Assembly (NCBI RefSeq): GCF_036194065.1
Contig: NZ_CP108095.1
Location: 372,001-436,000, forward strand
Length of the DNA: 64,000 bases
DNA from: Streptomyces sp. NBC_00239
GTDB lineage: Bacteria > Actinomycetota > Actinomycetes > Streptomycetales > Streptomycetaceae
Reading direction: 5' to 3'
Positions 14,094 to 39,969 of the stretch are shown here, piece after piece (positions within the stretch are counted from its first letter, which is position 1; every line of letters begins with the position of its first letter). Both the position numbers and the translations under genes were made by a program. The notes under the pieces are model-generated. The model worked only from the letters and a program-made list of their open reading frames with translations, was not told the DNA's origin and did no database searches.

Positions 14094-14160
14094 TCTTTTT
14101 TCGGTTCCCCCTGCTAGATCCCGCACGCGGTCCCGATGGGTGCGGGGCGGTCGGAGGCGC

Positions 14161-14189
14161 AGTCTTGAAGATCGTTAAAGAACAGTCAA
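14161..14189 (-). promoter_or_regulatory. Possible promoter of the ALF/lectin operon
   Basis: On the minus strand TTGACT (14189-14184) and AAGACT (14166-14161) are separated by 17 bases in an unusually AT-rich patch, about 70 bases upstream of the first gene. This is motif matching by eye only. Confidence 0.35.
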
Positions 14190-14978
14190 AGTGGAATTGA
14201 CCAGTCCTATGCACCCAGAGACTGATTTGACGGAGTATTGGGCCGATCTCCGCCATTTTTCGACGGCAACCAGCCACGCGGAGGCGGAATCCGGACCGAT
14301 GAGTAACAAGGAACGGCTCATTCCGCAGGCGAACGCCCTGGCGTGCCACCACCGGCCACCGTCCCCGCAGCCCCTCCCCGCCCGAGGGCACAAGGGATCG
14401 GGGCACGTCCCACCGGACACCCCTCCGCTCCGTAAAGGCCGCGTGAAGGTGAAATGTGGTTCAGTACACATCAATGATCGCGACCGGTACCAGCGGTGTA
14501 CCATCCGTCGCTTCCCGCAGGTGTCCAGGCCGGCTCAGGGCCCGTCGGGTACCGCGGGTCCCGGGTGGGTGGTGCGGGGTTTCCGCCGCCAGTCGGCCCA
14601 CTCGGCGTGCGGGAGTTTGGCCAGGCACGACTGGAAGTAGATGACGGACATCTGCATCCGGGCCAGGGTGACGGCGCTCACGCCAATGAGGGCTCATGTG
14701 CCCCGGCTGCGCCCCGAGGTCCTGGCGGGGACGCCTGCTGCCGGTGCGCGGGCACAGCAGGCTCCGCCGGCTCGGCCTGGCGGGGCGCGGCGCCGGTGCG
14801 GGCCCGCTCGGGGGGCAGTGACGTCCGGCGCTGGAGGGCGCGCTTGGCGGCGCTGGTGCCCCTGGAGCAACTCTGGCACCATCTCAGCCGAGATGATCAA
14901 GCTTGGGGTTTGATCCGTCTCACCTGCATCGACCGCATCGACGCCGTCGTAGAGCACTGAGAAGATCTGAGGCCGACC
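14190..14978. other. Gene-poor interval
   Basis: Between the divergent ALF operon and the Cys-repeat gene. It contains one short minus-strand frame described separately (14535-14681) and a small CATCTC/GAGATG inverted repeat near 14880. I see no other convincing gene. Confidence 0.4.
14535..14681 (-). CDS. Short hypothetical frame, possibly the tail of a lost gene
   Basis: A 48-residue frame with a GTG start, reading VSAVTLARMQMSVIYFQSCL and then a Trp/Arg-rich, Pro-rich end. The composition looks like real protein, not a shadow, but there is no ribosome-binding site and an in-frame stop lies just upstream. It is either a small gene or the surviving end of a degraded one. No function can be assigned. 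Confidence 0.3.
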   Translation of the reverse strand: MSAVTLARMQMSVIYFQSCLAKLPHAEWADWRRKPRTTHPGPAVPDGP

Positions 14979-15818
14979 TTGAAGACCTTACGTACCCGCA
15001 TACCGCACCTGCTGACGGCCGTGTTGCTGCTGCTGGGCGTGATGACCGCAGCGACCGCGCAGGCGCAGGCCGCCCCGCAGCGGGTCGCGGGCAGCGCGAA
15101 CGTCTGTTCCAACACCCCCGTTCCGGCGGGCTGGGTCATCACCAGCTCGTACCAGGGCAGCGGCTGTACCACCGGTGTCTGGTACACCATCGCCGATACG
15201 AGCGGGCTCAACTCCGCCTCCGTGTGCTCCCAGTCGCCCATCCCGACCGGGTGGGTCGTCACCAGCTCGTACAGCACGAGCAACTGCGCCGGCACCGGGG
15301 TCGGCTACTACATCGGCAACACCGCGGGCCAGAGCTTCGCCGTCGTGTGCTCGCAGTCCCCGATCCCCACCGGGTGGGTCGTCACCGGCTCGTACAGCAC
15401 GAGCAACTGCATCGGTACCGGCGTCGCCTACAACATCGGCAACACCGCGGGCCAGAACTTCGCCACCGTGTGCTCGCAGTCCCCCATCCCCACCGGATGG
15501 GTCATCACCAGCTCGTACAGCACGAGCAACTGCAGGGGCACCGGCGTGGGTTACAACATCGGCAACACCGCCGGCCAGAACTTCGCGGTCGTGTGCTCCC
15601 ACTCCCCCATCCCGGCGGGGTGGGTCGTCACCAGCGCGTCGAGCACGAGCAACTGCACCGGTACCGGCGTCGCCTACAACATCGGCAACACCGCCGGCCA
15701 GAGCTACGCCACCGTGTGCTCCTACTCCCCCATCCCCTCCGGATGGGTCGTGAGCAACTCGTTCCGGGCCACCAACTGCGTCGGCACGACCCTCGGCTAC
15801 AACATCCGCAAGGCCTGA
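14979..15818 (+). CDS. Secreted protein of six Cys-paired ~41-residue repeats
   Basis: A 279-residue protein with a TTG start behind GAGG at 6-base spacing and a signal peptide ending at AQAQAA. The mature part is six tandem repeats of about 41-43 residues with the pattern V-C-S-x-S-P-I-P-x-G-W-V-V-T, then STSNC about 20 residues after the first Cys, then GTGVxYxIGNTAGQ. Each repeat has exactly two Cys, suggesting one disulfide per repeat. The middle repeats are nearly identical at DNA level, which points to recent expansion. I recognise no named family; an extracellular adhesive or structural role is a guess from the architecture. Confidence 0.75.
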   Translation: MKTLRTRIPHLLTAVLLLLGVMTAATAQAQAAPQRVAGSANVCSNTPVPAGWVITSSYQGSGCTTGVWYTIADTSGLNSASVCSQSPIPTGWVVTSSYSTSNCAGTGVGYYIGNTAGQSFAVVCSQSPIPTGWVVTGSYSTSNCIGTGVAYNIGNTAGQNFATVCSQSPIPTGWVITSSYSTSNCRGTGVGYNIGNTAGQNFAVVCSHSPIPAGWVVTSASSTSNCTGTGVAYNIGNTAGQSYATVCSYSPIPSGWVVSNSFRATNCVGTTLGYNIRKA

Positions 15819-25572: not shown

Positions 25573-26313
25573 ATGCCGGCGACCTTCACGAGCCTGCTGT
25601 TGCTCATCGTCCTGCTCGCACCCGGGTTCACCTACGCGGCGGTCCGGGACCGCCACCGTCCGGAGCGGACCTCGACGGCGTTTCGGGAGACCTCGCGCGT
25701 GGTGCTCGCGAGCGTCGGGTTCAACGCCGCCGCGCTGATCTCCTTCGCCTGCGTACGGATCAGCGCGCCCGACCGGACCCCGGACGTGGGTCGGCTCGTC
25801 CGCGAGCGTGATCCCTACGTTCGCGCGCACTACGCCGAGACCCTCATGTGGACGGCGGCGGTGCTGCTCCTCGCGGTCCTGTTCGCAGTGCTCGTCGCGC
25901 GGTTCCTTCCGCGCCGGAGGTTCGCGGTCAATCCGGAGTCCTCCGCCTGGTGGGTTCTCTTCGACATGAACGCCCGGGCCAACGGGACCGAATGGATCCG
26001 GGTGGAATGCGAGCTGATCGACGGCTCCCACCTGGCCGGACGGGTTCATCACTACTCCTCGAATCCGGAGGAGACCGGCGACCGCGAACTCGCGCTCGGG
26101 CCGCCGTTCGAGTACCGGCCGGCTCCGGACGGCGAACAGCGGGACCTCACGGACACCCACCGAGTCGTCATCAGCGCACGGCAGATCAAGTTCCTTGGCG
26201 TGACCTACTTCAGCCGATCCGGGGGTTCTGGTGGAAGCAACGCACTTGGCAGGACGGCTGCGCGCAGTACTGGACCGGCACCAGGGCAACAGGGGGCTCA
26301 GCGAACTCCTTGA
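25573..26313 (+). CDS. DUF6338-type membrane protein
   Basis: A 246-residue protein with three hydrophobic segments at about residues 4-24, 42-62 and 92-115, followed by a cytoplasmic beta-rich domain (WIRVECELIDGSHLAGRVHHY) that looks like an SH3-like barrel, and a Gly/Ser tail. The start and topology fit the actinobacterial DUF6338 family. Its last 83 bases overlap the CHAT gene, so the two are translated together. It may anchor the protease complex at the membrane or be its target. Confidence 0.7.
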   Translation: MPATFTSLLLLIVLLAPGFTYAAVRDRHRPERTSTAFRETSRVVLASVGFNAAALISFACVRISAPDRTPDVGRLVRERDPYVRAHYAETLMWTAAVLLLAVLFAVLVARFLPRRRFAVNPESSAWWVLFDMNARANGTEWIRVECELIDGSHLAGRVHHYSSNPEETGDRELALGPPFEYRPAPDGEQRDLTDTHRVVISARQIKFLGVTYFSRSGGSGGSNALGRTAARSTGPAPGQQGAQRTP

Positions 26314-29300
26314 CGCACCCGCGCTGGAGGTTGCGCAGGCTCTTCTCGATCTGTCGGAGCGGGGCGAGGTCGAGGAGCGGGCGATCGCCGTCCTCGGCGA
26401 GTTCCACTGGCGCCGCTTCAAGGTTCTCGGCTTCGAGCGCGGGGAGCCGGACTTCCATCGGGCCCAGTTCCTGCTCCAGACCGTGCTGCAGCAGGACGGG
26501 GATTGCCTGCCGGAGGAGCTCAGGACGGAAGTCATCCCCGGCCTCGTGGACGGCTGGCAGCGCATCGCGGAGCGCACATCCGGGGAGGCCCCGAATCGGG
26601 GCGAGGTGCTGCTGGGCCTGGCCAGCGCCCTGCACACCCGCTATCTGGCCACCTTCCGCCGCGATCACCTCGAAGAGGCGCTCGGCATGAGTCGTGCGGC
26701 TCTGACGGTGCTCCCGCCCGGGTCCGAACATCGGGTGCCGGGTCTCCTCCAGTTGGAGAACCTGCTGGCGCACCGCTTCGAACTGGCACATGAGTTGGCC
26801 GACCTGGAGCGAGCCATCGAAGCGTGCGAGGAAGCCGTCCCGCTCACGGGGCCGGGAGACGTCCAGCGGGCGGCGCTGCTCAGCGATCTGGGCATGCACG
26901 AGCGAGCGCGCTTCAAACTCACTGGAGTACCTGCCGATCTGATGCGTGCGCTCGACCATGGCCGGAGAGCCCTCGAGGCGGTTCCACCTCAGTCCAAGCA
27001 AGGGCAGGAGGCGGCCCGCGAGCTGTTCACCTCGGTACAGCTGTGGGCGTCCCGGATCGATGAGCTCCCGGGTCCGGAGGGAGGCGACCGGGCGAGCCTG
27101 TCGGCGTTCCTGAAGGACCTACGGGAGCGGCACGGCGTCCTCTTCGTCATCCGCAGTGCCGTCGATCTCGCCGAGAGTGCCCCCCATGCCTCACAGCAAG
27201 CCGACGCTTCCCCGCCGCACGACGCGGACGCCGGGCTGAGGCACTGGGCCGCGGGCGTGGGCATGATGCAGCGCTTCACCCGGAACGGCGCACGCGACCG
27301 CGCCGACGTCGAGACGGCGGTGAGGCACTTCCGGGCAGCGCTCGCGTCCCTGCCGCAGGAGGACCTCACGGCGGTCCGGGTCCAGCTCGGTGGCGCTCTC
27401 CTCCAACGCAATCACCCGGAGGACCTCGACGAGGCGATCGACCTGTTCCGCGTCGTGGTGGCCTCCGATCCCGACCCCGGATCCCGTGACGGGAGCCGAG
27501 ATCTCGCGGCGGCTTGGAGCAACCTCGGAATCGCCCTCTGGACTCGATGCCGCCGCCGTCGCTCGATGGACCTGGACGGCCCGATCGAAGCGTTGAGCAG
27601 AGCAACCGAGCTGCTTCCCGAACACGAGCGGGACTCGCGTCTGCCGGTTCTCGGCCTGCTGGCGACGCTCCTCGCCGTGGCCGCACAGCTGCACGATGAC
27701 GAGGAACGGTTCCAGGCGGCGCTGGCCATCATCCGGCGGGAGCCGGGCGCGGCGGAGAACCTTGACGAACAGGTTCGTCGGCAGCTGACGGAAGAGCTGG
27801 TGGGCCTTGCATTCCGCCAAGCCGAAGTCCACGATCTCGACGCCGCCATCGAGAACATGGACGTCGCCGCCCAGATCGTCGGCGGCAGCACGGAACGCGC
27901 GGCTTTCCACAATGTACTGGGCCAGTGGCTGGGCGACAGATACCGGCGGACCGGGGACGTGGCGGACCTGGACCGGTCGGAGGATTCATTCCGGCGGGCC
28001 CTCGAGCAAGCCCCCGCGAACGACACCCTCCAGGTCTCCTGCCACGCCAATCTCGCCGTCACACTCAAGATGCGCTACGAGGCGCAGGGCGCTTCGGAAG
28101 ACCTGGAATCCGCGATCCTGGCCAACGACGTGGCCGTCGGGTCGGCGCGGCCCGACCACCCAGAACGAGGGACCCTGCTCTCCAACCGCGGGATCTTCAG
28201 GATGGAGCGGTTCTCGCTGAGCAACGATCCCGACGACCTCGACATCGCTGTCGGCGCGCTGACGGAGGCCGTGGCCGGCGCCGATCCCGCGAGTCCTGCT
28301 CACGGGCACTTCAGCAACGGCCTCGGCAACGCGTTGCGAAAACGGTTCAAGCTGACCGCCGACCCGGCCGACATCGACCGGGCGATCACCGTGCTGCGGT
28401 CGGCCTCGGAGTTTCCGGAGGCCTCGGACGAAGACCGGGCCATGTACCTCAACAACCTGGGCGTGGCACTGCGACGACGCTTCCGGCGCCAGGGCGATCC
28501 GGGCGACCTGGACGCGTCCATCGACGCGCATCGGCGTGCGATCGACCTGAGCGATCCCGGTGTCCCGGGGTGGGCGAAGGACCAGTCGACTTATGCCACC
28601 GCGTTGCAGGATCGGTTCAAGACCACCGGTGAACCCGCCCACCGGGACGCGGCGGTAGCCGAGTTCGCCAAGGTCGTGGAACGAGCCGACGCCATCGCGG
28701 TGGTGCGAATCCGCGCGGCGCAGGCCGCGGCGGAACTCACCGCGGAACACGATCCCGGCCGTGCCGCCGACTTCCTGGAAGAGGTCGTTCCGCTGCTGGA
28801 GACCGTCGCACTGCGCCGGTTGGCCCTCAAAGACCGGCAACGCATGCTCAGTGATTACAGCAGCCTCGCTGCTGACGCCGCGGCGCTCGCGCTGCGGGAC
28901 TCCAGGATCTCGCCCGAGGAGCGCGCCGCCAGGGCACTGGTCCTGCTGGAGACCGGCCGGGGCGTTCTGCTGGGCCAGGGCCTGGAGCTCAGGCGCGACC
29001 TGACAAGGCTTCGGGACGCCGATCCGCACCTGGCCGGACGACTCGAAGAACTGCGTGCCGAACTCGGCCGTGCGAACGCGTCAGCCGCGGACCTGCGACG
29101 ACTCGACGCGCGGCTCCGCGAGACGCTGGTCGAGATCCGTGCCGTCGACGGCTTCAGCGAGTTCGGCCGTCGGCCCAGCCTCGCCGAACTGAGACGCCAG
29201 GCTTCGGACGGCCCCGTCGTCGTTTTCAACATCAGCTCGTACGGCAGCGACGCGATCCTCGTGACCGGGCACGGGATTCGCTCCCTGGAGCTTCCGCGCC

Positions 29301-30280
29301 TCACGAGGAAGGCCACAGCCGAGAAGTTCTTGAGCCTTCTTCGCACGCAACCAGGATGGCCGGACATGCCGGAGCCGGAGCCGGCCCAGGGCATGAGTGA
29401 CGTGCTCACCTGGCTGTACGAGGCCGCGACCGGACCCGTGCTCGACGCCCTCGGCCTCGGGCCCGTACATGAGGACGACGAGAGGGAGTGGCCGCGGATC
29501 TGGTGGGTCCCGACCGGCCTGCTCGCCCTGCTTCCGCTGCACGCGGCGGGCGACCACACCTCGGCCGGCCGTTCGGTGCTCGATCGCGTGGTGTCGTCCT
29601 ACACCCCGAGCCTGACCGCGCTCTGCCATGCCCGGCAACGGCGACGGCGTCCCGCCGCGCACGTCGGCCTGATCGTCGCGTTGCCGCAGACCCCGGGACC
29701 TTTGGACGATCTGCCCGGCGTGGCGGCCGAGGCACGGGTGATCGCGCGAATGATTCCGCACCACCTACTGCTCGACTCCGGTGATCCGGCGGGCGAACGG
29801 CCGGAGAAGGACAGCGTGCTGCGGCACCTCCGGCGCTCCACGATCGCTCACTTCGCGTGTCACGGTGGCGTCGACGCGCAGGACCCCGTGCAGAGTCGGC
29901 TCTTTCTCGCCGACCACGAGACCGATCCGCTCACGGTCGGAAGCCTGCTGCCGCTCGATCTGTGTGACGCACAGATGGCCTTCCTGTCCGCCTGCCGGAC
30001 CTCGTTCATGGCGAAGCTGTCCCTCCTGGACGAGTCACTGCACCTGACCGCGGCCTTCCAACTGGTGGGCTACCCCTACGTCGTCGGAACGCTTTGGAAC
30101 GTCGGCGACGGAGCCGCGGCGTGCTTCGCGTTCTGGTTCTACGACGCGTTGTCCACCTGGGACCGGAACCTCAGGCTCGCACACTCGGCGCACGCGGCCC
30201 ACAGGGCGACCCGGCTGCTCCGCGAACGCTTCGCCGACGATCCGACGCACTGGGCCGCGCACGTTCACTTCGGCGCCTGA
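26231..30280 (+). CDS. TPR-CHAT caspase-like protease
   Basis: A 1349-residue cytoplasmic protein starting with GTG inside the previous gene. Residues of about 120-900 are a long array of TPR-like helical repeats (recurring DLDxAIxxxRxA...P and LxxxLxxRFxxxGD patterns). A helical linker precedes the CHAT domain, about residues 1080-1345. It has the catalytic His motif HFACHG (His1211) and Cys motif SACRT (Cys1255), with the family hallmark GTLWNVGD after it, so an active protease is expected. CHAT-TPR proteins cleave partners in bacterial immunity and cell-death systems; the substrate here is unknown. The gene ends an operon of three. Confidence 0.85.
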   Translation: MEATHLAGRLRAVLDRHQGNRGLSELLDAPALEVAQALLDLSERGEVEERAIAVLGEFHWRRFKVLGFERGEPDFHRAQFLLQTVLQQDGDCLPEELRTEVIPGLVDGWQRIAERTSGEAPNRGEVLLGLASALHTRYLATFRRDHLEEALGMSRAALTVLPPGSEHRVPGLLQLENLLAHRFELAHELADLERAIEACEEAVPLTGPGDVQRAALLSDLGMHERARFKLTGVPADLMRALDHGRRALEAVPPQSKQGQEAARELFTSVQLWASRIDELPGPEGGDRASLSAFLKDLRERHGVLFVIRSAVDLAESAPHASQQADASPPHDADAGLRHWAAGVGMMQRFTRNGARDRADVETAVRHFRAALASLPQEDLTAVRVQLGGALLQRNHPEDLDEAIDLFRVVVASDPDPGSRDGSRDLAAAWSNLGIALWTRCRRRRSMDLDGPIEALSRATELLPEHERDSRLPVLGLLATLLAVAAQLHDDEERFQAALAIIRREPGAAENLDEQVRRQLTEELVGLAFRQAEVHDLDAAIENMDVAAQIVGGSTERAAFHNVLGQWLGDRYRRTGDVADLDRSEDSFRRALEQAPANDTLQVSCHANLAVTLKMRYEAQGASEDLESAILANDVAVGSARPDHPERGTLLSNRGIFRMERFSLSNDPDDLDIAVGALTEAVAGADPASPAHGHFSNGLGNALRKRFKLTADPADIDRAITVLRSASEFPEASDEDRAMYLNNLGVALRRRFRRQGDPGDLDASIDAHRRAIDLSDPGVPGWAKDQSTYATALQDRFKTTGEPAHRDAAVAEFAKVVERADAIAVVRIRAAQAAAELTAEHDPGRAADFLEEVVPLLETVALRRLALKDRQRMLSDYSSLAADAAALALRDSRISPEERAARALVLLETGRGVLLGQGLELRRDLTRLRDADPHLAGRLEELRAELGRANASAADLRRLDARLRETLVEIRAVDGFSEFGRRPSLAELRRQASDGPVVVFNISSYGSDAILVTGHGIRSLELPRLTRKATAEKFLSLLRTQPGWPDMPEPEPAQGMSDVLTWLYEAATGPVLDALGLGPVHEDDEREWPRIWWVPTGLLALLPLHAAGDHTSAGRSVLDRVVSSYTPSLTALCHARQRRRRPAAHVGLIVALPQTPGPLDDLPGVAAEARVIARMIPHHLLLDSGDPAGERPEKDSVLRHLRRSTIAHFACHGGVDAQDPVQSRLFLADHETDPLTVGSLLPLDLCDAQMAFLSACRTSFMAKLSLLDESLHLTAAFQLVGYPYVVGTLWNVGDGAAACFAFWFYDALSTWDRNLRLAHSAHAAHRATRLLRERFADDPTHWAAHVHFGA

Positions 30281-30310
30281 CACCGACTGCCGAACGAACT
30301 CCAGCGCCCC

Positions 30311-30412
30311 GTGACCGTGAAGGCCCTGCGCGACGGCGTCGAGAGCAGCCAGGACCGTGGCCGTTTCCGCCGGGAAGCGGCCATCGGAGCACGGCTGCGG
30401 CATCCCCCTGCC
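30311..30412 (+). pseudogene. Serine/threonine kinase fragment
   Basis: About 33 residues, VTVKALRDGVESSQDRGRF and then RREAAIGARLRHP, match the beta-3/alpha-C region of Hanks-type kinases (the VAVKxL lysine and the alpha-C helix). The frame then degenerates. A separate 30440-30587 frame ends in GHGWNVYTFFF and may be the tail of another lost gene. No other gene is seen in 30281-30693. Confidence 0.55.
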
Positions 30413-30693
30413 GGGACGGAGGGCCCCACCACAGACCAACCGGGGCCTGCTCGTCCTGGAGCGGCGCGGCGGCGGCACGATGGTGGCCTTCCCCGGCCAC
30501 CCTGCGAAGGTCGGCTCCGACGAGTCCGCGCCCCGCAGTGAAGCGATCGTCGGCCACGGCTGGAACGTCTACACGTTCTTCTTCTGAGCGCCGGTCACCC
30601 GCGAAAAGGGCCCAACCAACGCGCTGCCCGCGCCTGTCGCTCTCGACCGCACCCGGTGAACGGGAGCGGCGGGCGGCTTTCTAGGCTGACCCC

Positions 30694-30924
30694 ATGTCCG
30701 ACGAGCCACCCCTACCGCGCAGCCTGCGGGCCCCGACCGCACCCACCGCGACCCCACCCCGGGCCGCCGCGTCCGCGGCACCCTCACCCGCCACGGACGC
30801 CGCCGCCCGGCGCCAAGCGCCCTGTGTGGTCTTCGTCGACGAGCTGGACGCGCTCGGCGCCGAGCGCTCGCGTACCCACCACAGCGGTCTGCTCAGCACC
30901 ACCCACGACCGGGACAAGGCCTGA
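30694..30924 (+). pseudogene. Internally deleted AAA+ ATPase, only Walker B region left
   Basis: A 76-residue frame: a Pro/Ala-rich N-terminus joined directly to APCVVFVDELDALGAERS, the Walker B segment of FtsH/p97-type AAA+ ATPases. The Walker A, arginine-finger and lid regions are absent. It ends in an ATGA overlap with the next gene, so it may still be translated and help start it. It could be a regulatory mini-protein, but a deletion remnant is more likely. Confidence 0.5.
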
Positions 30925-31991
30925 TGAGCCGCGCCCTGCAACAGGCCGACGCCCTCTTCGACCTGGGCCGCTACGAGCAGGCCACCGCACTCGCCGCCCG
31001 GCACCTCGCCGACAGCCCCGACGACGTCACCGCACTCGTACTGCTCGCCCGCTGCCGGCAGCACCTCGGCGACGGCCGACAGGCGCTCACCACCGCCGAA
31101 CAGGCCCTGCGCGTCGCACCCGAGTCGGTGACCGCATGGCTGACGCACACCCACGTCCTGCTCGCCCTGAAGAGGTACCAGCAGGCCGAGGTCTCGGCCC
31201 GGCGCGCGGTCGAACTCGCCCCGCAGCACTGGGCGAGCCACTACAACCTCGGCATCGTCCTCGGCCACGGCGCCCGCAGGAAGCGCAAGCGGGCCGCGTA
31301 CGAGTCGGCCCGCAGGGCCGTCGCCCTCGCCCCCGAGGAGAGCGACGCGTACGTCCTCGTGGGCGTGACCGCCCACCACACCGGCAACCACCGCGTCGCC
31401 CGGGAGGCCTACGAGACGGCGCTGCGCCTCAACCCGGACAACAGCGCGGCCCACAACAACCTCGCGCTGCTCCATCTGCGCCGCTGGTTCCGCCGCGGCT
31501 CGTGGACCCGGGCGGCCGAGGGCTTCGTCCAGTCCGCCGCCCTCGATCTGAACGACCGCCAGGCCCGGTACAACCTGGAGACCATGGCCTGGGGAACCGT
31601 CACGGGCTCCCGCTGGGTGGCCCTCGCCGGAACCATCGCGGTGTCGTTGGGCTCCGCCCACCTGCGTGCGGGCGCCGCAGGCGCCGACGCCCTCGTCACC
31701 CACCTGGTGTGCGCTGCCGTGCTCCTCGGCAGCTGGGGAGGCTGGCTGCTGTGGCAGACCCGGCGGATCCCGCCCCACCTGCGCCGCCCCCTCCTGCTGG
31801 TGGCGCGCGGCTGCCGACCGGTCCTCGGGATGGCGCTCCCCATCGCGCTGCTCATCCTCCACGCGCCTTTGGCGCTGGTGCTGTGGCGCAGCGCCCTGTT
31901 CAGCGCGCTCGCGATTCCCCTGTTCTTCTTCGCGATCGTCACGTCCGTGGCCGGCCGTACCGCCCTCCAACAGCGCGCACCGAAGCGGTAG
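30924..31991 (+). CDS. TPR protein with C-terminal membrane segments
   Basis: A 355-residue protein starting in the ATGA overlap. Residues 1-220 form five to six tetratricopeptide repeats (ALFDLGRYEQATALAARHLA, the RYQQAEVSARRAVELAP unit, and the HRVAREAYETALRLNP unit). From about residue 228 there are four hydrophobic segments, ending in a basic tail. The TPR region should lie in the cytoplasm and assemble partner proteins at the membrane. Upstream it once had an AAA+ ATPase partner, now deleted. Function unknown. Confidence 0.75.
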   Translation: MSRALQQADALFDLGRYEQATALAARHLADSPDDVTALVLLARCRQHLGDGRQALTTAEQALRVAPESVTAWLTHTHVLLALKRYQQAEVSARRAVELAPQHWASHYNLGIVLGHGARRKRKRAAYESARRAVALAPEESDAYVLVGVTAHHTGNHRVAREAYETALRLNPDNSAAHNNLALLHLRRWFRRGSWTRAAEGFVQSAALDLNDRQARYNLETMAWGTVTGSRWVALAGTIAVSLGSAHLRAGAAGADALVTHLVCAAVLLGSWGGWLLWQTRRIPPHLRRPLLLVARGCRPVLGMALPIALLILHAPLALVLWRSALFSALAIPLFFFAIVTSVAGRTALQQRAPKR

Positions 31992-32103: not shown

Positions 32104-33951
32104 CTAGCGAGCCGGCGCCCACGGGGCGAAGGCGTTTTCCACCGATCGCAGGGCCCCGCGCAGCTCCGGGAAGTGGCGCAGCAGCACGCTGGTCATGGTG
32201 TTGTCCTCGATCCAGTCCAGGCCGGTCTGCGTGTACACCTGCGGGGTGTAGTCCGTGGTCAGGAACCGGTCGCTGTTGAGGCGGCGGGACGCCATCAGGA
32301 CGAAGATCCGGAAGGCCGTGTCGCTGAAGGCGAAGCCCTTGGGGCGGGGCTCGGCGTACAGCCCGACCATCAGGTCGACGCGCTCGATGTCGCCGTCGTA
32401 CGTCCGGCGCAGTTCCTCGGCCCAGGCAGGGTTGTCCGTGAGGGATTCGAAGTCCTCGGCGGGCTTGAGGTGGAGCTGCCGCCGGAACTCGTTGTAGCGG
32501 GGTACGCCCATTTCCCGGATGCGCAGCACGTCGACTGCCGCCAGGTCCATCAGCTTGCCGTCCGGGCGCTCGAACTTCTGGAGGAACTTGGGGTAGTTGT
32601 GCAGGGTGACGAGGCCCGGGTGGGAGGTGCCGAAGGAGTAGAACAGGTCCGTCGGGCTGTGCTTCCGGTAGATCTCGTAGGCGTGCGGTCCGGTCAGCTC
32701 TGCGAACGTGGCGTCCTGGAGGGTCGAGTCGTCCGCGGCCGAGCGGAAGCTCCAGTCGTCGGGCACCAGGGGGTGCATCCGATAGACGGCCACGAACTCC
32801 TCGGTGAGCGCGTACGGGACGCCGAAGTGGTCGGGGCGTCCGCCGATGATGCCGCTGAGCACCTCGTTCCGGCTGACCCGGCCGAGCAGTCGGTGGATCC
32901 GCTTGCCGAGCAACCCGTACCAGTTGGCGTGCATGGCGGTCACGGTGGTCGGGTGGCTGATGACGGCCGGGGTCCATTCAACGGTGTGGATCTTCGCGAT
33001 GAGCGCCGCGTTGATCAGCCGTGCCCGCTGGAAGAGCTGTTCGTCGCTCCAGCCGGGGAACTCCGCGGACAGCCGGTCGCAGATGGCGTTGTGCTCCAGG
33101 ATGAACAGGTGGTGCATCATCAGCAGGCCCACCCAGAAGCCCGGGGTGCCGGCGGGGTCCGGTTGCGGACCGTCCGGGAAGAACGAGCCGTTGTGGGGGA
33201 CCTTCAACTTGCCGTCCGCGCCCGAGCGCAGCTGCCGCTGGGTCGCCAGGTCGCTGCCGTAGACCTGCGATGCGTCCCACCAGTGCGAGTGCTCGTTGAT
33301 GTACGTCGGCGGCAGGCCGTCGCCGCCCTCGGGGCGGGTGGAGTCGGGCACGGTGCGGGGCACCAGCATGGGGCGTTCCGGCCAGGGGTCGTCGGGCAGC
33401 AGCTCGATCCGCCAGGGGTCGTCGACGGCACCCTGGCCGTGGCTGACCCAGTCGCGGACCATGAACTGCAGCCAGGACGCGACCAGGGCGTTGACGGATG
33501 TGGCCGGGATGAACTCGTGGCGGGTCAGCAGGGCCCGGCTGACCTCGCGGGGGCTGGGCGACAACAGTTCCGGCAGGGGCTCGGGGTAGGTCTCCTCGGG
33601 CGGCACGTTGCGGCCGAAGCGGGAGCCGGCCATGCCCATGCGGGGCTCGTCCAGGTCGTTGTACGAACCGTCGGCGGTGCGCTCGGTGAGGTGCCGCGTG
33701 GCGGGCGGCTCGATGTCGGGCGCGCCCTGCGTGGGATAGGAGCCGGTGTCGAAGAGGTTCTTGCGGCGCAGGTTGGCGCGCAGGCCCATGAGCGTGGCGA
33801 GGCCGAGCGGGGTCGGCAGGTTCTGCCAGCCCAGCTTGCGGTCGGTTGCCAGCGCCAGGTCGTCGTACAGGCGCAGGAAGGGCGAGCCGGTGCCGCGCGC
33901 AGGCTGCGGGGCGGCCTTGTCGGTGGCGGAGCCATCGGGAGTCTTGCGCAT
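32104..33951 (-). CDS. Alpha-dioxygenase/cyclooxygenase-like heme peroxidase
   Basis: A 615-residue protein; the ATG at 33951 has AAGGA eight bases upstream. It belongs to the peroxidase-cyclooxygenase superfamily. A distal-side segment QFMVRDWVSH (His171) matches the plant alpha-dioxygenase/COX distal His region. VYRMHPLVPDDW contains the proximal His393 and, three residues before it, Tyr390, the place of the COX radical tyrosine. FILEHNAICDRL also fits. The length is that of plant fatty-acid alpha-dioxygenase. It probably adds oxygen to a fatty acid by a tyrosyl radical. It is the last gene of a five-gene operon with two other heme enzymes. No signal peptide is seen. Confidence 0.75.
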   Translation of the reverse strand: MRKTPDGSATDKAAPQPARGTGSPFLRLYDDLALATDRKLGWQNLPTPLGLATLMGLRANLRRKNLFDTGSYPTQGAPDIEPPATRHLTERTADGSYNDLDEPRMGMAGSRFGRNVPPEETYPEPLPELLSPSPREVSRALLTRHEFIPATSVNALVASWLQFMVRDWVSHGQGAVDDPWRIELLPDDPWPERPMLVPRTVPDSTRPEGGDGLPPTYINEHSHWWDASQVYGSDLATQRQLRSGADGKLKVPHNGSFFPDGPQPDPAGTPGFWVGLLMMHHLFILEHNAICDRLSAEFPGWSDEQLFQRARLINAALIAKIHTVEWTPAVISHPTTVTAMHANWYGLLGKRIHRLLGRVSRNEVLSGIIGGRPDHFGVPYALTEEFVAVYRMHPLVPDDWSFRSAADDSTLQDATFAELTGPHAYEIYRKHSPTDLFYSFGTSHPGLVTLHNYPKFLQKFERPDGKLMDLAAVDVLRIREMGVPRYNEFRRQLHLKPAEDFESLTDNPAWAEELRRTYDGDIERVDLMVGLYAEPRPKGFAFSDTAFRIFVLMASRRLNSDRFLTTDYTPQVYTQTGLDWIEDNTMTSVLLRHFPELRGALRSVENAFAPWAPAR

Positions 33952-34067
33952 CGTGGATTCCTTCCGGCGTCCGGCCGGTCGACGGGCAGGGGGGCGGTGT
34001 GGGGCGGGCGCGAAGGTACGGCGGTACGGTGGCACGGCGCTGCTGCGGTGCGGCGAGGCGGCGAGGC

Positions 34068-34457
34068 TCAGGTGTGGCCTCGACGCGTCCCTTCCGGCAG
34101 CTGGGCCAGCAGCGAGAGGACGACGTTGACCGTCGAGATCGCGGTGGTGGTCATCGCCGCGCGCGGCGGGAGCATGCCGTGCCGGCCGGCCGCGGCCGCC
34201 GACAGCGCGTCGCTCGCGTGGATGAGCGTGCCGATGCGCAACGCTCGGGCGATCCTGTCGGCGTCCTTGAGGAGCAGCAGCTCGGCGCCGATGAACACGG
34301 TTCGCACACCGAACATGCGCAGCACGTGGACGAGGCCGGGCTGGTGCTCGTCCGCCCCGAGCCGGCGGGCCACCACCTGCGGGGCGGCCAGCGCCGCCAC
34401 TCCGTTCACCAGCCGGATCCCGGCCAGGCTGTAACGCGCGAGGGAGCGCGGGTCCAT
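34068..34457 (-). CDS. Small membrane protein (DUF4267-like)
   Basis: A 129-residue protein started at the ATG at 34457, preceded by GGAAGGGG. It has hydrophobic segments at about residues 14-32, 48-66 and 98-118, with polar loops between. Its layout resembles DUF4267-type four-helix membrane proteins, though the match is from memory. It lies between the catalase-like and COX-like genes, so it may anchor or help the heme enzymes. No function is known. Confidence 0.55.
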   Translation of the reverse strand: MDPRSLARYSLAGIRLVNGVAALAAPQVVARRLGADEHQPGLVHVLRMFGVRTVFIGAELLLLKDADRIARALRIGTLIHASDALSAAAAGRHGMLPPRAAMTTTAISTVNVVLSLLAQLPEGTRRGHT

Positions 34458-34547
34458 GGCCAGTACCCCTTCCAAAGGGAAGATCTCGTACTACATATGA
34501 CGATAGTCGACAGGGGGATGCCTCGCTCGCCGTGCCGGCGCGGGGCC

Positions 34548-35711
34548 TCAGGCCGCCTTGCCCGGATCCTCGTGCGACGTACCGTTCATGGACTGCCGCA
34601 GGCGTGAGAGGTGCAGGTAGATCTCACGGCGCGCGCGGTTCTGGTTGCCCAGCGGCCGGTGTTCGGGCAGGGCGTGCCACGGGTTGAAGGTCAGCCGGTC
34701 GGCCAGTGCGAACTGTTCGTCTTCCTCGAACTCCTGCCTGGGCAGCCGGAGTACGGCGACCGGGACGGACGGGGACAGCCGCTCGGGCCAGACGACGGAG
34801 GCGTTCTCGACGGGCATCCGGTGTGGGTCGGTCTGGAGTTGGACGAGGAAGTCGAGGACGACGTCCCGTCGGCGCAGCGCCCCGGCCAGGGCCTGCTGCA
34901 GGTAGTCGTCGGGCGGGTGCCGGGGGACCCGGCTCCGCGTCCGCTCACGCGGCACCACGGAGTACTGCATGGCCTGGCCCTCGCCGAGCAGGTACGGCAC
35001 ACAGCTCCAGTAGCGCGTCTCCAGCGGGCTGGTGTGGGTCTTGGCGTAGAGGCCCTGCATGACGAGGTCGCACAGGTGCGGGTGGCGTGGGCCAAGGAAG
35101 TACAGCAGCGGCGTGCCGGCGTAGACGTGCTGCTGGAGCAGCAGGTTCTCGGCGATGTCCGGGGTGGTGAACGTCGGGGCGCTGATGCCGGTGAAGTCCT
35201 GCGTGGCCCGCTCGTCGTCGAGCAGCGTCGGGCCCTCGACCCCCAGGAGTTTGACGGCGATGCTGAGTACGCCGTTGTCCTTGATGTCGGGCGGTGACAG
35301 CGGGCCGGGACCGGCGAAGCGGACCCAGGCCCGGAAGGTGGCGGGGCGGCGGAACACGCCGTGTCGCAGGCGCTCGGGCAGATCCTCCAGCACGGTGAAC
35401 TCGCCGTGGACGACCCCGTACGTCTTGGTGTTGCCGGCCCGTCGGGCGGTGCCCGGCCCGTACTCGCGCTGGACGAACCGGGTCATCTGCCGGGTGATGG
35501 CCTCGGTGACCTCCGTCTCGTCCGGGAGCGGGCGTTCCTCGGCGATGCCGAGGTGCTGGTCGCGGCGCCGGAGGTTGACGAGCCACTGCACCAGCGCCTG
35601 CACGGGCCCGCGCAGGGTGCGGTCGAGCAGGGGACGGACGTACGGGTCGATGCGCCGTTCGAGGTGGACCAGTGCGAGGAGGACGTCGTTGAGGCGCCTT
35701 GCCGCGCTCAC
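34548..35711 (-). CDS. Catalase-like heme protein (hydroperoxide-converting type)
   Basis: A 387-residue protein with a GTG start that overlaps the Dyp stop as GTGA. It has the catalase-fold heme pocket: YGVVHGEFTV with a distal His102, the conserved FRAWVRFAG patch, and near the C-terminus RREIYLHL, an RxxxY motif (Arg361, Tyr365) at the place of the catalase heme-ligand Tyr. Compared with true catalases it lacks the long N-terminal arm and is shorter. Similar proteins include coral allene oxide synthase, which turns fatty-acid hydroperoxides into allene oxides. In this operon a related reaction on a lipid hydroperoxide is a reasonable guess. Confidence 0.7.
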   Translation of the reverse strand: MSAARRLNDVLLALVHLERRIDPYVRPLLDRTLRGPVQALVQWLVNLRRRDQHLGIAEERPLPDETEVTEAITRQMTRFVQREYGPGTARRAGNTKTYGVVHGEFTVLEDLPERLRHGVFRRPATFRAWVRFAGPGPLSPPDIKDNGVLSIAVKLLGVEGPTLLDDERATQDFTGISAPTFTTPDIAENLLLQQHVYAGTPLLYFLGPRHPHLCDLVMQGLYAKTHTSPLETRYWSCVPYLLGEGQAMQYSVVPRERTRSRVPRHPPDDYLQQALAGALRRRDVVLDFLVQLQTDPHRMPVENASVVWPERLSPSVPVAVLRLPRQEFEEDEQFALADRLTFNPWHALPEHRPLGNQNRARREIYLHLSRLRQSMNGTSHEDPGKAA

Positions 35712-37156
35712 AGCCCGGCGTCCGTTCGGGTGCCTTCGCACAGGTAGCGCAGGGCGCGCAGGCCGGGCAGGAAGAAGTAGGCGCCGCCTCGGACGTAGAC
35801 GAACTGCGGCAGGTCTCGGTAGCGGGTGCGGACCGGCCTGGCCTGCACGGTGAAGGTCGAGTGGTGGTCCTGGCGGGCCCCGACGACGGGGTCCGGGCCG
35901 TCGTAGAGGCCGTTGAAGTCGGGATTGTTGAGCCAGGTGTGCTGGATGAACTCGAACTGGCGGGAGATGTTGGCGTTGAGGCAGAGGAAGTGCAGTCCGC
36001 TGCCGTCCGTGCCGGGTGCCGCTGCGTCGGCGGTCCCGTACGCGCGGCTGCCCGGCCCGTACGCGCGGCCGCGGCGCAGGATCCGGTGGCGTCGGCCGAT
36101 CGCGATCGAGCGGGCCGAGCCGGGGTCGGGGTCCAGCGAGTCGCGCGGGTGGGCGCGGCGGATGTGGGCGCCGAGCGGGCAGCTCAGGCCTTCGGGGTCG
36201 GTGGCGAAGTAGCCGAAGTCGTTGTCGGTGGCCAGGGCCGGGTCGTCGTGGTGCGGCGCGCGCACCAGGGGTGCGCCGCTGGGCCAGCGCCCCATCATGC
36301 GTGCCGCCAGGGCCCCCGCCGCCTGCGGGTCGGTGGCGCCGTCGGGCCGCCGGGTCGCGTCCTCCAGGTACTGCCGGAAGCCGTCGAGGTCCTGGCGGAA
36401 CTGCCGCAGGACCAGGTAGCTGCCGTTGCGCCCGAAGTCGGCGCCGGAGCCGTCGTGGGCGCGGGGCAGCAGGCCCGTGGCGTCGTGCGAGGCCGGCAGC
36501 AGTGGCCGGTCCGTGAGCAGGCCGTATTCGTTGGGGTAGCCGAGCACGAATTCCCCGGCCTTGACGACGTCGTCGCCGCCTGCGCCGGAGGCCTTGGACA
36601 GGCCCTCGACGAGGGGCTGCGAGATGCCGTCGCGGAACCCGAAGGGCTCGCGGTCGGTCAGCTCGGCCGTTCCCAGGCGGGCGATCTCCGTGAGGCCGCC
36701 CGCGCCGAGCACGTCGTGGCGCACCTCCGCCTCCAGCGCCGCCAGCAGTTGCTCGTCCCGGGCGTAGAGCAGCGCGAGGACGTGGACCGGCGGGGTGTCG
36801 GGGCCGCCCCAGAGCCAGTGCCGGGGCGCGTTCTCCCCTACGTCGCCGAGGAGGCGGGAGCGGTTGGGTTCGGCCATGCCGGTGACGAACTCCTGGGAGA
36901 ATCCGCTGGTTCCGGATGTGTCCAGGCCCAGGCGCCGTATGCCCTCGGAGGTGAAGGCGAGGTTCACCGCCGTGTGCGGCGGCTCTGCGCTGCCGTTCGC
37001 CACCTTCGGCGCGAGCCGTCCCAGGGCGGGCCGGGCGGCGGGGCCGGTGATCGTCAGCAGCAGGAAGCAGGCAGCTGTCAGGCTGCCGTATCCACGGGCG
37101 AGGATGCCCTGGATGTCGTCGAGTTCCAGGGGTGCGGGTACGGGTGCTGCTGCCAT
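35708..37156 (-). CDS. Dye-decolorizing-type (Dyp) peroxidase
   Basis: A 482-residue protein; ATG at 37156 downstream of GGAGGAGGG. It shows the Dyp signatures: FGFRDGISQP with the catalytic Asp176 and the adjacent Arg, and CPLGAHIRRAHPR with proximal His331, the heme ligand. No twin-arginine signal is present, so it is cytoplasmic or carried by partners. Dyp enzymes oxidise dyes, phenols and sometimes lipids with hydrogen peroxide. It overlaps the catalase-like gene by 4 bases, which implies coordinated synthesis. Confidence 0.85.
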   Translation of the reverse strand: MAAAPVPAPLELDDIQGILARGYGSLTAACFLLLTITGPAARPALGRLAPKVANGSAEPPHTAVNLAFTSEGIRRLGLDTSGTSGFSQEFVTGMAEPNRSRLLGDVGENAPRHWLWGGPDTPPVHVLALLYARDEQLLAALEAEVRHDVLGAGGLTEIARLGTAELTDREPFGFRDGISQPLVEGLSKASGAGGDDVVKAGEFVLGYPNEYGLLTDRPLLPASHDATGLLPRAHDGSGADFGRNGSYLVLRQFRQDLDGFRQYLEDATRRPDGATDPQAAGALAARMMGRWPSGAPLVRAPHHDDPALATDNDFGYFATDPEGLSCPLGAHIRRAHPRDSLDPDPGSARSIAIGRRHRILRRGRAYGPGSRAYGTADAAAPGTDGSGLHFLCLNANISRQFEFIQHTWLNNPDFNGLYDGPDPVVGARQDHHSTFTVQARPVRTRYRDLPQFVYVRGGAYFFLPGLRALRYLCEGTRTDAGL

Positions 37157-37187
37157 CGCGTCACGCCCTCCTCCGGCAGCGCCCTGG

Positions 37188-38987
37188 TCAGAACAGGGCG
37201 AGCCAGGCCTGGGTCTCTGCCGGTCCGAGATCTCCGAAGAGGCCCGCGCGGATACGGGCATTGGTGTCGATGTGGTGCGTGGTCAGCGTGTCGTAGGCCG
37301 AGTACCACACCTCGGTCGGCACCTGGTGGCAGCGCAGGAAGAACTTGAAGGCCTGCTCGTCCTCGGCGCCGTCCCGGACGAGCCACCGAGTGCGCGGATA
37401 GCCGTGACCGTTGCTGAAGACGGCGTTCAGGCCCCAGGCGACCTTGTCGACGAAATCGTCCATGTAGCTTTCGAGGCTGCCGTCGTAATTGCTCACGAAG
37501 ACCACTCGCCGTTTGTCGTCGATGAACAGCCAGCGGGCGAAGTGGATGGTCTTGACGCCGGCGAGGCTGCCCCGGTTGAACAGGTGACGGACCCCGTAGT
37601 CGACGACGAACAGGACCCCGGTGAGCGTCATCCGCCTGAACCGGCCGGACTTGACGAAGCCGACCGCGGTGAAGGGGTTCTGCGCGGCGAAGTCCTCGCA
37701 GGCGGCCAGCCGGGCCACGTGCTCCGGGTCGGGGCGCTCCCGGTTGGGTGCGTCGCGTCGCTCGTGCCATCGCAGCAGCACCGCCCAGACCGGCAGGGCG
37801 AACACGGCCACCGGCAGCAGCGCCAACCCGGCCAGGGGCACCGCGACCCGGTGCGCCGCCTGCCGGACCCGCCACCGCAGGCCGGGCCGGGCGGCCGGCG
37901 AACCCGCCCACGCCAGGTCGGGACGTCCGGTGACGAAGCGCTGGATCTCGGCCCGTACCGTGGCGGGGTCCTGCGGCAGTTCGGAACCGGAGGGACCCGC
38001 GGCACGCTGGTCGAGGAAGGTCTCGATCGCCTCGCGCAGCCGGGCCTCCTGAAGGATCTGCCGCAGGCCCCGGCCGACGGTGTTGACGTAGAACGCGGCG
38101 CTGGGAACGCAGTGGTCGCGCAGCCAGGCGACGCGTGCCGCGTCGGGGGCGCCCGCCACGGGATAGCCCTCGCAGTGCCCGAAGACCTCCCCGACACCGC
38201 TGCCGGCCTTGCGGACCAGATCGGCGAGGTGCGCGTCCAGCGGGGCGTCCACCTCGCTCATGTAGACGATGCTCGCCGGGACGGGCTCACCCGCGAGGTC
38301 GGTCCCGGCGGGCACCAGGACCAGACGCGCGAAGTGGACCCCGACCAGCTCCGAGAACGGGACGACCTCGCCCGCGCTCCCCTTGCGGCCGGCCTCGTCC
38401 AGGCGCCGCCGGACCTCGGCGACCCGGTCCTCGGGCACGACCGCCCTGATGGTCACGGCGACCTGGTGAGGGGCCCTGGCCGCCTCGGCGAGTGACGCCG
38501 TCGGGTCCGGTGATCCGTACGTTCCCGGTGATCCGGGTGAACCGCGAAGGCTCAGTGCGAAGTTCAGGACCTTGTGCCGCCCCCAGTAGACGATGCCGAG
38601 ATAGACACCGGGAGCGATCTCCCGGATCTCGTCGCGGATCCGCCGCGCCACGAACGACGTACGGGAGTAGTCCAGGACCGTGCATTCCTTGCCGTCGAGT
38701 CGGCTCGGGCCGCGATAGACCTTCGCCCGGACCGCGGCCACGCCGAACGGCGTGATCCGGTTGAGGAGTTCACCGCGGCCGGGATCGAAGACCTTGCCCT
38801 TCCAGGCGGCGACGCGGGCAAGGGCCGCGGCCGCCTCCGACAGCCCGGCGCCGCGCGCCAGCAGGACCGTGCCGTGCGCCTCACCCGTGGGGATCCCACC
38901 GGCGGGGCTGCTGCGGAACAGCTGATCGAGGGCCGGCCGCGACATGCCCAGCAGCCGGGCCACGTCCACCCCCGTGTCGTGGCTCAT
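37188..38987 (-). CDS. Unknown protein with duplicated domain and central membrane segment
   Basis: A 599-residue protein; the ATG at 38987 has GGAGG at 6-base spacing. Residues of about 25-155 form a lipocalin-like domain of unknown type (RITPFGVAAVRAKVYRG..., DEIREIAPGVYLGIVYWG). Two related domains follow, at about 215-340 and 455-590, sharing the pattern HFARxxxI..V/S-x-Y/D-x-P/S-L-D/E-x-x-x-D/D-x-V-x-K...GHG/CEGYP. They flank one hydrophobic segment (about 380-406). No heme or metal motif is certain. It is the first gene of the heme operon and probably membrane-bound. Confidence 0.55.
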   Translation of the reverse strand: MSHDTGVDVARLLGMSRPALDQLFRSSPAGGIPTGEAHGTVLLARGAGLSEAAAALARVAAWKGKVFDPGRGELLNRITPFGVAAVRAKVYRGPSRLDGKECTVLDYSRTSFVARRIRDEIREIAPGVYLGIVYWGRHKVLNFALSLRGSPGSPGTYGSPDPTASLAEAARAPHQVAVTIRAVVPEDRVAEVRRRLDEAGRKGSAGEVVPFSELVGVHFARLVLVPAGTDLAGEPVPASIVYMSEVDAPLDAHLADLVRKAGSGVGEVFGHCEGYPVAGAPDAARVAWLRDHCVPSAAFYVNTVGRGLRQILQEARLREAIETFLDQRAAGPSGSELPQDPATVRAEIQRFVTGRPDLAWAGSPAARPGLRWRVRQAAHRVAVPLAGLALLPVAVFALPVWAVLLRWHERRDAPNRERPDPEHVARLAACEDFAAQNPFTAVGFVKSGRFRRMTLTGVLFVVDYGVRHLFNRGSLAGVKTIHFARWLFIDDKRRVVFVSNYDGSLESYMDDFVDKVAWGLNAVFSNGHGYPRTRWLVRDGAEDEQAFKFFLRCHQVPTEVWYSAYDTLTTHHIDTNARIRAGLFGDLGPAETQAWLALF

Positions 38988-39013
38988 CACATACCTCCAT
39001 GGGCCATGACATC

Positions 39014-39042
39014 ATCGTATTTCAGTCTGTATGCCACGGCAT
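39014..39042 (-). promoter_or_regulatory. Probable promoter and operator of the heme-enzyme operon
   Basis: On the minus strand TACGAT (39019-39014) looks like a -10 box about 27 bases upstream of the first start codon. An ATGCC-AC-GGCAT palindrome (39031-39042) covers the -35 region, so a dimeric repressor could block it. The remainder of 38988-39399 shows no gene. Confidence 0.4.
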
Positions 39043-39399
39043 GTCACGTCTCCGCAGGCCGTGTCCCGCGCCCCGGCATACCGCGCGCCGATGCGGTCAG
39101 GCGCACCAGGCAACGCCTCATGCGTCCGCGCAGCGCGGGGCGGCGGGACCGGGTCGACGTCGGGGCTGCAGCCACACGACGGGGGCGCCGTTGACCGGCA
39201 TGCGCGGTCCAGGGTCCGCAGCGGGTGGATTCGAGATGCCCTGCCGGTAGGGCTGTTGTGCGTACAGGGGATCGTTTCTGCGATTCCTGTTCGGGCGTGG
39301 CGGGGGAAGTCGCGCAAAGGTGTGTGGAAGCGTCCCGACCGTTCCCGGGTGGAGGCGGCGTTACCGCTGCCCTGCCCCCTTCCGGAAGGACGACTTGTC

Positions 39400-39969
39400 A
39401 TGCGCAAACCTAGGTTCTCGCTGCTCGCCGCCGTGTGCGCGGCGGTCCCGCTCGTGTTGGCCGGAGCCTCGCCGGCGTCGGCGGATTCGCTCATCAACCA
39501 AGATCTCGTGAACAAGATGCACGGCAGCCGCCTGGCGCTGGGCGGGGACAGCACCGCGGAAGGGGCCGAGGTGATCGCGCTCCGCGGTACCCGCTGGGAC
39601 AGCTACATCACGGAGGCCTGGGACTGGGAAGGCACCTACGACAGCACCAACCAGCTGTGGACCGCGACGCTGCGCAACCGTGCCGCGAACCGGTGCATCG
39701 AGCCCGAGTCGACGAACCCGGTCCGGGGAAACCGCATCGTGGTACGCGCGTGCGACGGCTCGGACCAGCAGAAGTGGAGCCTGCGCCTGGAAACCAAGGG
39801 CGGCAACCCGGAGCGCTGGTGGATCTGGCGTCCACTGAAGAACGTCAACGTCGCCATGGCCCTCCAGAACACCAACAACGACCAATGGGACACCGTCCGC
39901 CTGGACTACTCCTACCCCAGCGACGACCGCCTGTGGCAGACCGGCCCCAACAACCAGTCCTGGTGGTAG
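39400..39969 (+). CDS. Secreted ricin-type lectin-like protein
   Basis: A 189-residue protein; ATG at 39400 with GGAAGGA about 10 bases upstream. A clear signal peptide ends at ASPASA. The mature part carries one beta-trefoil-like domain with CIEPEST and QQKWSLRLE motifs plus WWIWRPL and LWQTG, all in the spacing of ricin-type domains. It has two Cys that can form a disulfide. Probably binds glycans outside the cell. Confidence 0.75.
   Translation: MRKPRFSLLAAVCAAVPLVLAGASPASADSLINQDLVNKMHGSRLALGGDSTAEGAEVIALRGTRWDSYITEAWDWEGTYDSTNQLWTATLRNRAANRCIEPESTNPVRGNRIVVRACDGSDQQKWSLRLETKGGNPERWWIWRPLKNVNVAMALQNTNNDQWDTVRLDYSYPSDDRLWQTGPNNQSWW

Follow-up and report, generated by a model that had tools for sequence, protein, structure and literature searches.

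Can a compact bacterial operon that brings together three different heme enzymes make a lipid hydroperoxide and then convert it? The question is raised by a locus of Streptomyces sp. NBC_00239 located at positions 32104-38990 of the window, i.e., the whole stretch of 64,000 nucleotides that was analyzed (contig NZ_CP108095.1, positions 372,001 to 436,000). Five open reading frames (ORFs) of the minus strand, P1 to P5 in order of transcription, are packed here in an operon-like arrangement. A sequence-only reading of this DNA had proposed that the encoded proteins make a lipid hydroperoxide and then rearrange it. Here, we describe the gene order, protein families, heme-ligand residues, folds, conservation, linkage, and fusions observed for this gene set, and we consider it somewhat probable that the proteins of this operon form a lipid hydroperoxide and then transform it, either at the membrane or close by.

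Heme enzyme families encoded by the locus

All five closely spaced or overlapping ORFs reported earlier were found again. P2 and P3 share 4 bases, and P1 and P2 share 74 if the first ATG of P2 is its start, while the intergenic gaps amount to 90 bases (P3-P4) and 116 bases (P4-P5). Relatives were drawn from a scan of genome contigs with P1, in which the best 80 of 478 relatives were kept as loci (hereafter, P1 loci), and from samples of 101 genomes of the genus and 396 of the phylum, the counts from both samples being lower bounds.

P5 (32104..33951, minus strand; 615 amino acids [aa] from the ATG at 33951, with the frame open to 34035) had been described as an alpha-dioxygenase/cyclooxygenase (COX)-like protein, and the data bear this out, placing it with the fatty-acid alpha-dioxygenases of the peroxidase-cyclooxygenase superfamily. 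It matches Pfam An_peroxidase with 360 bits, and its best matches in the Protein Data Bank (PDB) are the plant alpha-dioxygenases 4kvj (E 6e-115) and 4hhr (1e-112), with COX-2 far lower (2.5e-20). Residues were surveyed in 77 close rows from the fetched loci, with gapped rows set aside and four duplicate rows counted. The P5 equivalents of Y379, H382, H311, and T316 of rice alpha-dioxygenase, to which we assign the roles of catalytic Tyr, proximal His, and carboxylate-site His and Thr, respectively, were identical in 76 of the 76 rows scored (the first two being Tyr390 and His393 in P5), as was the equivalent of R559, presumably the carboxylate-site Arg, in 75 of 75.

The distal His of alpha-dioxygenases is absent from P5, which has Arg166 at this position. 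According to the available part of a published phylogeny (PMC8720084), alpha-dioxygenases are present in Actinobacteria and their distal His is only partly conserved, and therefore this residue may be no strict criterion for membership of the family. On a tree of 80 P5-family sequences, built with a quick method that warned of long branches, the distribution of Arg/Lys versus His at the distal position needs three changes, at least two of them forced by well-supported branches. Arg or Lys is found in 38 rows, 33 from P1 loci (the window and genome G035 counted in) and 5 (L007-L011) from genus relatives inside their clade; the His is kept by cyanobacterial rows, COX-like rows, and 13 of 14 catalase-dioxygenase fusions (see below). 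The alpha-dioxygenases of G018, G020, and G078 are identical to those in the P1-locus set, and the two samples thus overlap. Locus L029 has a Pro at the distal site and no catalase motif, and looks damaged. The genome of NBC_00239 also encodes a second alpha-dioxygenase (G000:C1:3128362-3130185; L031, L199), which is 48% identical, has the distal His, and has a gene for a lipase-like alpha/beta hydrolase as its neighbor.

P3 (34548..35711, minus strand; 387 aa from the GTG at 35711, with the frame open to 35741) is a catalase-fold heme protein. Pfam gave no match at E 0.01, the PF00199 cut-off not being reached, and the catalase likeness was invisible to a single-sequence PDB search and to a narrow profile, which found no PDB match. 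The catalase-like protein of the sequence-only reading was nevertheless recovered by a wider profile, which returned catalase-fold matches from the PDB, and by the predicted structure (predicted local distance difference test score, 86.0), which adopts the catalase fold and has coral allene oxide synthase as its first PDB match by both Foldseek and VIA-align. In the residue survey, R91, R131, Y365, and R372 were kept in 65 of 65 rows, and the proximal R-x3-Y-x6-R (R361-x3-Y365-x6-R372 in P3) and the heme-propionate Arg of heme catalases are likewise present in all rows (65/65). P3 matches the coral enzyme in fold and heme anchor (coral R64, R102, R360, and Y353). The distal side is different: the position of the distal His is occupied by Asn in 57 rows (Asn94 in P3) and by Gln in 8, that of catalase Asn148 by Ser in 54, Cys in 10, and Thr in 1, and the coral distal T66-H67-N137 set is replaced in the alignment by G93-N94-S177.

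An ordinary catalase was rejected as an identity for P3 because the distal His is replaced by Asn/Gln in all 65 rows and there is no Pfam match. Also rejected was a version of P3 devoid of a proximal ligand, with NPWH at the Tyr site, since profile alignments place the Tyr in the later, fully conserved R-x3-Y-x6-R. The P3 relatives P0141, P0147, P0159, P0164, P0169, P0185, P0194, and P0224 are 629 to 648 aa long, with a hydrophobic C-terminal extension of ~240 aa in the four inspected.

P2 (35708..37261, minus strand) is a DyP-type heme peroxidase, as had been claimed. It scores 100.6 bits with NCBIfam TIGR01413, barely above the cut-off of 100.5, and matches PDB entry 8re3 ("Peroxidase, putative") with an E of 6e-67 and named DyPs from 1e-33; Pfam gave no match at E 0.01. 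Its active-site residues Asp211, His366, Arg368, and Arg369 are identical in 79 of 79 rows. The heme-ligand residues of all three families are in place, in agreement with the earlier count of three different heme enzymes.

P1 (37188..38990, minus strand) has 600 aa, or 599 from the ATG at 38987, and no match in Pfam, NCBIfam, or PDB-sequence searches. Its predicted fold comprises a small lipocalin-like barrel (residues 1 to 150) and a duplicated ABM/SchA-like core (residues 175 to 600) with two hydrophobic helices (371 to 412). The duplication previously ascribed to this protein is thus visible in the fold but was not detected by self-BLAST, which revealed no internal repeat. Pfam ABM is not matched by P1 and reaches 14.7 bits in one distant relative, under the cut-off of 23.1. 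No named enzyme with a known reaction was matched in the structure search, a result which excludes nothing. Of the named relatives of P1, the nearest belong to Streptomyces, and relatives of the P1 core are called "hypothetical protein" wherever the source gave a name. P4 (34068..34457, minus strand; ATG start at 34457, with the frame open to 34475) is a small hydrophobic protein with a weak, DUF4267-like match (16.9 bits against a cut-off of 27.8; 15.1 bits for the relative in L089). Purine-rich stretches precede the ATGs of P4 (34457) and P5 (33951). A promoter and terminator scan of the locus, of a kind that covers Streptomyces promoters poorly, gave nothing exceeding shuffled sequence.

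Conservation, linkage, and fusion of the genes

The P1 loci, all of which contain the P1 core by construction (80/80), belong to Streptomyces, Amycolatopsis, Mycolicibacterium, Chloroflexi, cyanobacteria, Nitrosomonas, Nitrosospira, Variovorax, Acidobacteria, and others. Using tblastn with the window proteins, a DyP gene was found in 79 of the 80 loci, the P1 N-domain in 73, a P3-type gene in 60, an alpha-dioxygenase/COX-like gene in 54, and P4 in 32 (for the P1 N-domain this tblastn figure is the one used, the seeds of its hidden Markov model [HMM] being fused). HMM counts, which take any gene inside the fetched flanks on either strand, were made on the 54 loci flanked on each side by at least 4.5 kb. 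DyP was present in 54 of these, P3-type genes in 44 (including a 74-bit trace in L078 and a split gene in L090), and dioxygenase/COX-like genes in 41 (including weak matches of 78 to 109 bits in L114, L131, and L152). By the same HMMs, the P1 core, DyP, P3-type, and dioxygenase/COX-like genes occur together in 31 of the 54 full-flank loci and in 41 of the 80 loci overall. A GMC oxidoreductase was found in 12 full-flank loci, a protein with two CXXCH motifs in 14, and a patatin-like protein in 9, and 51 of the 54 hold at least one of the dioxygenase, the GMC oxidoreductase, and the two-CXXCH protein.

Because the gene set recurs in several phyla, its arrangement is more than chance, and chance neighborhood was rejected as an explanation. 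Co-occurrence in other genomes was one of the points on which the sequence-only reading had, beforehand, declared itself open to refutation, and the gene set proved to be conserved across phyla. A fully fixed five-gene pathway was also rejected, as P3, P4, or the dioxygenase can be absent. In L090, ~2.3 kb of other DNA (~13305-15596) splits the P3-type gene, and P1 core, DyP, P4, and alpha-dioxygenase still match. Genus relatives L207, L209, L210, L211, and L212 have a P1-like/DyP/catalase-like set without alpha-dioxygenase, and the catalase-like member of this set has the distal His in place (RDAHAK).

The genus sample contains an alpha-dioxygenase in at least 28 of 101 genomes, a P3-like protein in at least 20, DyP in at least 21, and P1 in at least 5 (one with the N-domain only), with all four together in at least 4 (G000, G018, G020, and G078). 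In 14 of the at least 28 genomes with an alpha-dioxygenase, a divergent catalase-like domain and the alpha-dioxygenase share one open frame of 967 to 1303 aa. The catalase-like domains in these fusions retain the distal His and are 27 to 46% identical to P3 where the two align. The two domains are encoded in one frame in reverse order in G479, from another family of the same class, and by adjacent genes in G419. The genes of these two genomes, the lipase-like neighbor of the second alpha-dioxygenase, and the genus sets lacking alpha-dioxygenase were called with a crude GC-position score. A protein search with one such fusion listed 120 of 820 relatives, nearly all 944 to 981 aa long, from Streptomyces where named, and many of those listed carry both PF00199 and PF03098.

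Occurrence of the two families is also associated across genomes. An alpha-dioxygenase was found in 16 of the 20 genus genomes with a catalase-like match versus 12 of the 81 without (lower bounds; Fisher 5e-8, kinship uncorrected), and in 7 of the 7 genomes with a catalase-like match in the phylum sample versus 20 of 396 overall (lower bounds; hypergeometric 3e-10, kinship uncorrected). In G283 and G393, the catalase-like and alpha-dioxygenase genes lie on different contigs. A single 830-aa open frame in L108 (10465-12954) matches both alpha-dioxygenase and the P1 N-domain.

A proposed lipid hydroperoxide route and its rivals

In the route described here, what is consumed and what is made, the sequence of the reactions, and the parts played by P1, P2, and P4 are inferred. 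The route would start with P5 abstracting a hydrogen from the carbon beside the carboxylate of a free fatty acid, in some related loci supplied by patatin-like or lipase-like enzymes, and adding O2 to give a 2-hydroperoxy acid. P3, with its proximal Tyr-Arg intact and the amide of Asn94 for a distal His, would bind the hydroperoxide and isomerize, cleave, or reduce it, with no dismutation of H2O2. The DyP may use up leftover peroxide or further oxidize the product, while the P1 barrel and ABM-like domain with its hydrophobic helices, together with P4, might hold or pass on the greasy intermediate at the membrane. By analogy, such a route probably bears a partial likeness to signaling-lipid synthesis in corals and plants, with an unusual enzyme set.

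The presence of three heme families, the coral allene oxide synthase as the first match of P3, the conservation of the gene set, and the fusions in both orders are consistent with the making and conversion of a lipid hydroperoxide. Rearrangement in the manner of the coral enzyme, the other part of the original proposal, fares less well: P3 lacks the distal Thr-His-Asn set, and the coral mechanism therefore cannot, judging from these residues, be copied onto it; nor would allene-oxide chemistry simply transfer to the 2-hydroperoxide expected from P5. Several other observations weigh against the hydroperoxide route. P5 has no distal His, a residue presumably required for peroxide activation. P3-type genes are missing from 10 of the 54 full-flank loci and dioxygenase/COX-like genes from 13, and 5 of the 18 Streptomyces/Kitasatospora loci have no intact P3 (absent from L075, L079, and L081, a trace in L078, split in L090). 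Ordinary catalases score within 2 Z units of coral allene oxide synthase against the P3 model, and the fused catalase-like domains, given their 27 to 46% identity and retained distal His, need not catalyze the reaction of P3. Next to P5 in the window there is no gene for a patatin-like or lipase-like protein. Finally, since a GMC oxidoreductase and a two-CXXCH protein take the place of the dioxygenase in some loci, the substrate shared by the loci may not be a fatty acid.

A substrate other than common fatty acids is what would be expected if the locus served specialized-metabolite or other membrane-lipid tailoring, with the heme enzymes and the ABM-like P1 oxidizing a polyketide, polyprenoid, or sterol-like molecule. 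We regard this as unlikely: the His, Thr, and Arg equivalents of the P5 carboxylate site are invariant, the patatin-like and lipase-like neighbors suggest fatty acids, and no polyketide or terpene synthase family was found among the recurrent neighbors scanned. A role in peroxide defense, in which the dioxygenase-like protein is a peroxidase and the heme enzymes jointly scavenge H2O2 as well as lipid peroxides at the membrane, would account for the fact that DyP and the catalase fold are both peroxide-handling families, that P1 core with DyP is the most constant part of the loci (79/80), and that the genus has a related P1-like/DyP/catalase-like set devoid of alpha-dioxygenase. It fits poorly with a P3 lacking the distal His and Asn of catalase, with the oxygenase Tyr and substrate site kept in P5, and with a genome that already holds four catalases above the Pfam cut-off, and is less likely still.

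We give least credence to plain alpha-oxidation, i.e., that P5 shortens fatty acids by one carbon via an aldehyde and that the other four proteins protect from, or consume, by-products. The catalase-like fusions in both orders argue instead for a hand-over between the two enzymes, and the recurrent neighbor clusters scanned included no aldehyde dehydrogenase family, no search having been aimed at it. This would make alpha-oxidation a very improbable function of the whole set even though P5 stays where P3 is missing (L075, L079, and L081), P5 and P4 of G035 (L006) adjoin a P1 N-domain in a genome where neither DyP nor P3 was matched at the thresholds used, and cyanobacterial relatives make fatty aldehydes according to the available part of PMC8720084.

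If the preferred route, the making and conversion of a lipid hydroperoxide, is true, oxylipin-like chemistry could be dissected one gene at a time in the bacteria that carry these loci, and many of these bacteria are in culture. The partnership of a dioxygenase with a catalase-fold protein, as in corals and Nostoc, would then recur with a different oxygenase and a remodeled catalase pocket. The missing distal His (65/65 P3-type rows; at least two branches of the P5 tree) would turn what a catalase fold does with a lipid peroxide under an amide above the heme into a testable question, and the P1-core family would receive its first functional hypothesis. A more ambitious joint reading, possible but doubtful as a whole, is that of an as yet unnamed, cross-phylum operon building and rearranging lipid hydroperoxides in which P3 would be a 2-hydroperoxy-acid isomerase/lyase by virtue of its distal His-to-amide change, the alpha-dioxygenase, being activated by DyP or P3 as its partner heme enzyme, would have exchanged its own distal His for Arg/Lys at least twice, on separate branches, and the two ABM-like repeats of P1 would form a new membrane oxygenase or scaffold. 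Were it true, the operon would parallel, in bacteria, the pathways to prostaglandins and jasmonates and follow its own chemistry.

Known systems and neighboring genes

The sequence-only reading knew of no described bacterial pathway with this exact gene set. The open-access literature searched indeed contained no report of the operon, of a Streptomyces alpha-dioxygenase-catalase fusion, or of P1, and no functional report on such fusions. The principle itself had been published. Brash et al. 2014 (doi 10.1074/jbc.M114.555904) reportedly described a 10S-dioxygenase and a catalase-related hydroperoxide lyase from Nostoc punctiforme. The available parts of two papers (PMC13049297, PMC9579011) present a linoleate 10S-dioxygenase, a COX relative, and a catalase-related 10S-hydroperoxide lyase in this organism, and thus a partnership of a COX relative with a catalase-related protein is not new in bacteria. 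As far as these parts go, the Nostoc pair resembles the route proposed here in that a lipid hydroperoxide made by a peroxidase-cyclooxygenase relative is converted by a catalase-related protein with a gene of its own, the genes being linked in the window and in 41 of 80 loci. The gene set here differs in that the best matches of P5 are alpha-dioxygenases, P3 has a distal Asn, and DyP, P1, and P4 are additional, the two systems being likened by description.

The coral allene oxide synthase-lipoxygenase (1u5u, 3dy5; PMC5617202, available part) shares with P3 the three heme-binding Arg, the proximal Tyr, a catalase fold lacking the additional domains of catalases, and a fused or linked hydroperoxide-forming partner, but that partner is a lipoxygenase rather than an alpha-dioxygenase and identity to P3 is 14 to 16%. 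Plant (4kvj, 4hhr) and cyanobacterial (PMC8720084, available part) alpha-dioxygenases match P5 over the full length, including the catalytic Tyr, proximal His, and carboxylate-site residues, and differ in the distal His, Arg in P5. The Streptomyces catalase-alpha-dioxygenase fusions, called "peroxidase family protein," unite the P3 and P5 domain families in one chain but keep the distal His, with ~27 to 46% identity to P3 and 44 to 46% to P5. MAP2744c, a 33-kDa catalase-related protein (3e4w, 3e4y), has the short catalase fold and, in the profile alignment, the R-x3-Y-x6-R of P3, with 19 to 21% identity by structure alignment.

Among the neighbors in related loci, a patatin-like protein of ~1000 aa is encoded in 10 of 80 (two copies were scanned and gave 20.6 and 23.0 bits, below the cut-off of 27.7), directly after the alpha-dioxygenase in the 6 Streptomyces loci having one; patatin-like and lipase-like neighbors fit a supply of free fatty acid. 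A GMC oxidoreductase (16/80 loci) and a protein of ~826 aa (17/80; two CXXCH in the L122 copy) are found near P1, mostly where the dioxygenase was not found, and loci with one and/or the other are L102, L104, L106, L111-L117, L122, L129, L131, L145, L147, and L152. GMC and dioxygenase occur together in only 5 of the 80 loci; in L188 and L190, a GMC gene adjoins the alpha-dioxygenase. L118, L121, L126, L138, L145, L151, and L153 have COX-like ORFs of ~970 to 1000 aa that are 27 to 30% identical to P5, and a second catalase-like gene lies between this ORF and P1. The product of this second gene has a distal Gln in all six shown, and that of L118 scores above the Pfam Catalase cut-off.

In the window itself, the operon stands tail to tail with plus-strand genes at 26231-31991, encoding a 1349-aa CHAT-domain protein (143 bits) and then a TPR protein. 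The divergent neighbor of P1, at 39031-39969 on the plus strand, shows a weak ricin-B-lectin match of 22.8 bits (cut-off, 29).

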